A stretch of 64,000 bases of DNA from the NCBI RefSeq assembly GCF_004214815.1, contig NZ_CP035926.1, positions 124,001-188,000 on the forward strand. Reading direction: 5' to 3'. A program made the translations under genes and the position numbers. The DNA comes from Aliarcobacter thereius LMG 24486 (GTDB lineage Bacteria > Campylobacterota > Campylobacteria > Campylobacterales > Arcobacteraceae). Position 1 is the stretch's first letter. Every line of letters starts with the position of its first letter. Below are positions 14,939 to 15,487 of this stretch, in pieces. Under the pieces are notes generated by a model that saw only the letters and a list, made by a program, of their open reading frames with translations, was not told where the DNA came from and ran no database searches.

Positions 14939-15487
14939 GTGCAAAACTGTAAGATAATTTCTGAAATGATGGTACATATTTCACTTTGTACGCATATTTG
15001 GGCTAAGGATGTTTTAGTTCTTAAAGAAGTAAATGAAGAGCTAAAAACTGAGTGTGAAAAACACAAAAAAGAGAGTAGTTTTTTATTTGAAGAGTATTCA
15101 AATATTGAAAATAAAGAGAATAAATCTCTAGATGTAGTTATTTTAAATTCACAAAATATAGATTTTAAAGTAGTTTCTCAAATGCAAAGAGTATTAAGAG
15201 ATGATGGTTTGGTAGTTGTTGAAAGTTCATTTTATTCAAAAGATATAGAAAAATTAAAAAAAGATTTACAAGCTTTTGGTGAACACTTCTGGATAGTTAT
15301 GCCATTTAATTTTGGGCATACAACAGCAATTATTGCTTCAAAGAAATATCATCCAACAGCTGATTTAAATCTTCATAGAGCTGACTTTTTAGAGGGTATG
15401 GAATATTATAGTTCTGATATTCATTTGGCTTCTTTTGTTTTTCCTGCAAAGGTTCACAAAGAATTAACTGGTATAGCAAAAAGATAA
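14939..15487 (+). CDS. Spermidine synthase-like protein (SpeE C-terminal region), probably non-canonical
   Basis: The 182-residue product resembles the Rossmann-fold part of Campylobacterota spermidine synthases, with the C-terminal pattern [21 protein letters not shown] and [14 protein letters not shown]. The N-terminal beta domain of SpeE is absent. The glycine-rich SAM-site and catalytic-Asp motifs of true spermidine synthases are not recognisable. The frame is open back to a GTG inside the terminator stem (14855). I prefer the GTG at 14939 because AAAGGA lies 7 nt before it; ATG at 14966 is another option. It is the first gene after the TPP riboswitch and 10 nt before thiC, so it is co-expressed with thiamine synthesis. 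Function is unknown. Confidence 0.65.

Follow-up and report, generated by a model that had tools for sequence, protein, structure and literature searches.

ThiC is the radical-SAM enzyme that converts AIR into HMP-P for vitamin B1. Its long form, characterised by the N-terminal domain PF13667, catalyses, judging by family, the same reaction as the short form, but it exceeds it in length by about 180 aa (five sequences of 622-641 aa, as compared to about 450 aa). To our knowledge, no dedicated partner subunit of this thiamin pyrimidine synthase has been known so far. The other systems closest to the locus described here are the spermidine synthases (SpeE), that is, the canonical family (TIGR00417, PF01564) and the group of the Helicobacter pylori enzyme (NF001811; structures 2cmg and 5x0z). 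The latter binds FliM and alters motility, according to the review PMC7355467. Finally, there is a likeness in idea only to the trypanosomatid prozymes, which are dead paralogs of AdoMetDC or DHS: in their case, the activator is an inactive protein related to an enzyme of polyamine synthesis. However, the partner of a prozyme is its live paralog, whereas the partner that we propose below is an unrelated radical-SAM enzyme.

The gene that we analysed, and for which we use our own name speL, lies in a stretch of 64,000 nucleotides from Aliarcobacter thereius LMG 24486 (hereafter "the window"), where it is the first gene of a thiamine operon (Table 1). As an earlier note on this DNA had stated, it is found below a TPP riboswitch, with 10 nt between its TAA (15487) and the ATG of thiC (15498). 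The match to RF00059 is located on the same strand upstream of speL and thiC, and we therefore treat the unit as a TPP-riboswitch operon. The GTG start of speL aligns with the ATG of its orthologs at six other loci (L004-L007, L013 and L014), and an AAAGGA is seen upstream of the gene in the window as well as in L003 and L005. The hairpin of the likely terminator (14852-14876) forms in the RNA fold of a 196-nt stretch, the fold as a whole being unexceptional (z -1.47; 14 out of 200 shuffles were equally good), and a terminator scanner assigned this stem solely to the minus strand.

Table 1. Coordinates of speL and of the surrounding features in the window.
Feature	Position	Strand	Remarks
TPP riboswitch aptamer	14710..14807	+	RF00059, 65.8 bits, cut-off 54.3
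Likely intrinsic terminator, in the gap between riboswitch and speL	14852..14883	+	stem 14852-14876 AAGGTGCTT/AAGCACCTT, then T run to 14883; from reading the sequence
speL, truncated and degenerate SpeE homolog, 182 aa	14939..15487	+	GTG start, TAA end
thiC, short form, 449 aa, without the PF13667 N-terminal domain	15498..16847	+	ATG start
thiS-like, 64 aa, C-terminal GGG	16860..17054	+	named from sequence
thiF-like	17054..17854	+	named from sequence
thiG	17871..18635	+	named from sequence
thiH	18636..19784	+	named from sequence
thiE-like	19786..20370	+	named from sequence
thiD-like	20380..21168	+	named from sequence

The SpeL protein matches NF001811 with an E-value of 2e-23 (83.4 bits, below the cut-off of 352), TIGR00417 with 31.3 bits (far below the cut-off of 249.55), Pfam PF01564 (Spermine_synth) with 18.7 bits (below the cut-off of 22.9) and the sequences of the structures 2cmg and 5x0z with an E-value of 1.3e-8. 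In an alignment with E. coli SpeE and 18 relatives, SpeL is about 65 N-terminal residues shorter than the E. coli enzyme. In comparison with the latter, the GGGDG SAM motif and the acidic nucleotide-binding segment are absent, as are the TDP loop with the catalytic Asp and the segment IPTYPSG. On the other hand, the C-terminal stretch HPTAD...YY...H.ASF...GIAKR has been retained, its YY...H part being found in E. coli SpeE and its HPTAD part in other full-length SpeE proteins.

The predicted structure of SpeL (mean pLDDT 90.7, based on 47 aligned sequences) was compared with known folds. With VIA-align, the top match is H. pylori SpeE (2cmg, residues 52-262; Z 23.9, rmsd 2.0, 178 aligned residues), tied with the Thermotoga SpeE 1inl (Z 23.8); residue 1 of SpeL corresponds to residue 52 of 2cmg, and the N-terminal beta domain is gone. 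With Foldseek, the best match was Trypanosoma cruzi SpeE, and 2cmg came in fourth place. There was no ThiC chain among the fold matches listed by the two programs, to which we attach no weight against any reading. Judging from the alignment and the predicted model, SpeL is a SpeE Rossmann core minus the N-terminal domain and minus the active site.

A search of the window's own genome with TIGR00417 did not give a second speE above the cut-off; there were two weak matches, one to speL itself (16.7 bits) and one elsewhere (16.2 bits). Using the SpeL protein as the query, we found its own locus and one match of 13.5 bits. Both this search and the structural comparison had been proposed in the earlier note, and their outcome agrees with its description of a SpeE-like gene that lacks the N-terminal domain, keeps the C-terminal SpeE pattern and has no recognisable SAM-binding or catalytic motifs. 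Its further suggestion of a repurposed enzyme does not hold in the catalytic sense, given the loss of the SAM motif, the nucleotide-binding segment and the catalytic loop. The same absences (SAM glycine motif, acidic segment, TDP loop and IPTYPSG) make it very unlikely that SpeL is still an enzyme and acts as an aminopropyltransferase or methyltransferase on a new, thiamine-related substrate, even though the Rossmann core has been retained and several residues are strictly conserved. Moreover, most of the conserved C-terminal stretch is common to full-length, motif-bearing SpeE of the class (L095, L108), so this stretch is inherited and does not indicate a new chemistry.

There are also forms that are intermediate between the canonical and the dead proteins: at two loci (L117, L121), SpeE is full length but its motifs have decayed in part (GGGNGG, VDAMAP). 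The Helicobacter relatives L112 and L118 have, like SpeL, lost the GGGDG and TDP motifs in the alignment, but they are full length and retain the N-terminal domain (267 and 264 aa, respectively). In Bacillota-type genomes (L107, L122-L124), SpeE is full length and likewise carries the HPTAD motif in its C-terminal part, and the locus L107 also contains a thiG-like ORF.

An ortholog of speL is present in a single copy in 88 of the 104 genomes of the window's family (f1). None of these 88 contains an internal stop, and one (G022) is cut by the end of a contig. The comparison of window speL with its nearest relative gave a dN of 0.025 and a dS of 0.195 (ratio about 0.13), and the ratios of five speL pairs range from about 0.01 to 0.37; by this measure, speL is under purifying selection. 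Beyond the family, we used a class sample of 397 genomes that are at least 90% complete, with arbitrary family numbers (f1-f13), f3 probably being Campylobacteraceae-like and f2 Helicobacter-like. The SpeL family profile matches in 228 of the 397 genomes. Among the matches listed, those of f1, f4, f5 (two matches), f7, f10 and f13 are mostly short frames, while most of those in f2, f8, f9 and f11 measure about 260-298 aa. This spread, within the family and beyond it, speaks against the idea of a recent accident, which the earlier note had considered.

The gene neighbourhood is a different matter. Among 72 named loci (seven of which end close upstream of the gene and one close downstream), the next gene is coaE in 61 cases and thiC in three. 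The full-length speE loci occupy the same place next to coaE, including all four of the Helicobacter isolate loci that were fetched (L112, L118-L120), and the place before coaE is the old place of speE. We find speL directly before thiC in nine genomes, all from the window's genus (G000, G015, G025, G012, G016, G028, G005, G014 and G030); since it is confined to these, the adjacency to thiC is a local state. Besides the window, six fetched loci contain the unit of riboswitch, speL and thiC (L003, L005, L049, L050, L055 and L057); no TPP riboswitch was found at the thi-linked locus L006, and L054 starts too near to speL to show one. In a tree, the main group with speL beside thiC has a support of 0.17, and G014 and G030 are placed elsewhere, so the move to thiC may have been one event or two. 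Elsewhere, the genes are separated: the distance is often 10-30 kb inside f1, and about 590 kb in two f7 genomes (G111, G226). The synteny with thiC proposed as a check is therefore seen within one genus, and coaE follows speL in most other places; as far as gene position is concerned, thi linkage is indeed lacking in most genomes. This does not apply to the presence and absence of the gene.

To describe the latter, the form of ThiC was called by the E-value to window ThiC, with the long form defined by the N-terminal domain PF13667. The domain search confirmed all long calls in f1, f4, f9, f10 and f12 as well as that of G409 (f3), and it did not find PF13667 in the window's own genome. Within the family, 84 genomes with short ThiC have SpeL (one of them, G019, counted on a 65-aa piece of thiC alone) and three do not, the latter (G018, G020, G076) being 54, 76 and 74% complete. 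Of those with long ThiC, one has SpeL and 11 lack it; without a thiC match there are three genomes with SpeL and two without. The association is strong (Fisher's p of 3e-11, not corrected for kinship). In the class sample without f1, f2 and f3, SpeL or full-length SpeE accompanies short ThiC in 102 genomes (members of f8, f11 and f9 being full length where seen) and is missing in two, while none of the 28 genomes with long ThiC has either of them. As for the two short-ThiC genomes without SpeL (G393, G186), no coaE match was found in them either, and the speL locus is therefore probably missing from these assemblies. Viewed by domain, PF13667 was positive in 41 of the 80 genomes searched (out of 84 selected), and only G001 among these 41 has SpeL; of the 39 negative ones, 33 have SpeL or SpeE and six do not (two from f3, two without thiC, namely G097 and G098, and two without coaE).

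We then looked at the changes on a tree of coaE and dapF with 75 selected tips of known ThiC form and 148 branches, one of the SpeL-positive tips (G347) being full length. Parsimony gave nine changes of SpeL and nine of ThiC, eight of which fall on the same branches (hypergeometric p of 2e-11). Two of the eight were reconstructed as regains, for which additional losses are the more plausible reading. The unshared changes are that of f3 (SpeL only) and that of G001 (ThiC only). We fetched 30 coaE loci, from G001, long-ThiC genomes, G097, G098 and one f3 genome, and speL is absent from all but that of G001; in the other 29, dapF adjoins in 28 and purM in 20. Outside f1, linkage cannot explain the pattern, because speL and thiC can be far apart there, as in the f7 genomes mentioned above. 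In summary, SpeL co-occurs with short ThiC across independent lineages, the exceptions being f3 and G001. The support for the thiamine-linked role suggested earlier comes mainly from this co-occurrence across families rather than from the operon position, which is seen in nine genomes of one genus.

Could SpeL be nothing more than a remnant of speE that is in the process of being lost and came to lie beside thiC by accident? It is indeed shorter and more divergent than SpeE, and the adjacency to thiC is limited to one genus. However, the intact frames of all 88 family copies, the dN/dS of about 0.13 between the window copy and its nearest relative, and the repeated loss of SpeL just where ThiC changes make this explanation hardly credible, and we disfavour it.

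The long ThiC proteins themselves are of two kinds, with PF13667 E-values near 1e-30 to 1e-36 or near 1e-22 to 1e-27, and their neighbours differ as well: thiC-thiO-thiG, thiC-thiG-thiH or thiC alone (L038, L040-L043, L156-L167; genes named from sequence). Since both kinds, apart from G001, go with the absence of SpeL, there may have been more than one donor for the replacement of ThiC.

Some genomes do not follow the pattern. SpeL is found in none of the 103 f3 genomes with a thiC match. PF13667 was searched for in three of them, one of which has long ThiC (G409) and two of which are negative (G105, G127); therefore, short ThiC can work without SpeL. In four f3 sequences, ThiC differs at 21 of the 292 columns that are conserved where SpeL is present. 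At S85, V126 and L223, most of the f3 rows carry the residue of long ThiC. One row of the comparison (L221) is in the wrong reading frame. The changes could be adaptive or not, and we regard them as a weak lead. The second exception, G001, combines long ThiC with an intact SpeL, which is found at the old locus. It has two thiG genes, one of the native type and one that goes with the long-ThiC operon, and looks like a case of a recent switch of ThiC. In five more genomes, there is a SpeL or SpeE match without a thiC match (G017, G046 and G074 from f1, G408 from f4 and G110 from f6). The genomes of f2 were counted separately, as SpeE is full length there: it is present in 71 of the 74 f2 genomes with thiC (all except G171, G203 and G268), but also in 13 genomes without thiC. 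The full-length f2 protein must hence have other work, which is a difference from SpeL, as is FliM, the reported partner of H. pylori SpeE.

FliM leads to another explanation, namely that SpeL is a motility factor of the H. pylori SpeE type. The close structural match to 2cmg (tied with 1inl) and the sequence match to 5x0z are in line with it. On the other hand, the presence of SpeL follows the form of ThiC, and a thiC operon under TPP control would be an odd place for a motor protein. In addition, a search of 28% of the genome of G094, which lacks SpeL, gave matches to E. coli FliI, FliP and FliN (no match to FliM, FliF, FliG or FliR was found in that part). Sulfurospirilla are motile, and SpeL is missing in 17 of the 22 sampled genomes of f10, the family that includes Sulfurospirillum arcachonense. 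Altogether, we consider a motility role improbable.

Potentially, SpeL could also act in the same metabolism without acting on ThiC itself, be it at AIR, where the syntheses of purines and thiamine diverge, or together with an electron donor of ThiC. Such a role predicts the same co-occurrence with short ThiC. The AIR synthase gene purM is found in divergent orientation within 1.5 kb upstream in 36 of the 72 named loci, including the full-length speE locus L121. However, as the example of L121 illustrates, this neighbourhood is common to full-length speE and need not mean function; purM also remains in 20 of the 29 loci without speL, and in the window's lineage speL has moved to thiC rather than to the pur genes. 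We find this alternative rather unlikely.

That SpeL and short ThiC are functionally linked in some way appears probable to us. The best explanation, which we favour with moderate confidence, is that SpeL is a non-catalytic helper of short-form ThiC, derived from a former spermidine synthase, and not a polyamine enzyme. In this scenario, SpeL would have arisen from a spermidine synthase by loss of the N-terminal domain and of the active site, and it would bind short ThiC directly and keep it active, stable or substrate-competent. Long ThiC would do the same job alone, perhaps by means of its N-terminal domain; short ThiC would require SpeL for making HMP-P, or at least profit from it, and SpeL would be lost once a long ThiC takes over. 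Direct binding of SpeL to ThiC as a partner subunit would be the least complicated mechanism, and we see a little less than an even case for it. More tentative still is the possibility that short ThiC in much of the class is a two-component enzyme, in which SpeL is a required subunit that replaces the role of the N-terminal domain of long ThiC.

If the two-component reading is true, SpeL would be the first protein known to us that serves thiamin pyrimidine synthase as a dedicated partner subunit. As a partner of ThiC, it would explain how some lineages can use ThiC without the N-terminal domain and provide a handle on the role of that domain, and it would clearly exemplify how a pathway can take over a dead metabolic enzyme from an unrelated one. 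While the profile libraries that we used file SpeE-like proteins under polyamine synthesis, SpeL appears to be related to vitamin B1. In the openly licensed literature that we searched, including PMC7355467, PMC4389238, PMC2628731 and PMC11999265, we found no SpeE-like protein linked to ThiC. The proposed relation between SpeL and ThiC can be tested in culturable Arcobacter-type bacteria.

Other pathways were compared with the distribution of SpeL as well. A link to polyamine synthesis was dropped, since nspC is general (70 of 73 genomes) regardless of whether SpeL is present. Since it has nspC, the window's genome presumably makes spermidine by the carboxyspermidine route. A link to the thiazole branch was also dropped, since thiH is rare (10 of 73 genomes), Thi4 was not found in any of 80 genomes and the type of thiG is uncoupled in several genomes: four long-ThiC genomes without SpeL keep a native-type thiG (G064, G090, G156, G221), and four with short ThiC and SpeL have a foreign-type one (G000, G015, G016, G025). 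SpeL does not, therefore, simply follow the thiazole branch. Of the other long-ThiC genomes searched for thiG, nine gave only an operon-type thiG (40-45%), five the thiGH type (52-59%) and one none; in those nine and five, ThiC and the thiazole genes have changed together. Furthermore, a fusion of the thiC gene was considered, suggested by an 819-aa frame in two f2 genomes, and set aside, as the fetched stretches gave a frame of 446 residues with ThiC only.

Two small genomes of g19 (G097 and G098, at loci L131 and L130; 88 and 85% complete) have no match to thiC or thiG and no SpeL, while purM-coaE-dapF is intact; they are possibly thiamine auxotrophs. Finally, a search for thiH in 30 family genomes did not find it in 25 of them, and window thiG is 63-64% identical to the thiG of two f3 genomes, as compared to 48-53% for the native-type thiG of the family. 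From these identities, the thiG of the window, perhaps together with the whole thiSFGH block (16860-19784), looks to be of acquired origin.
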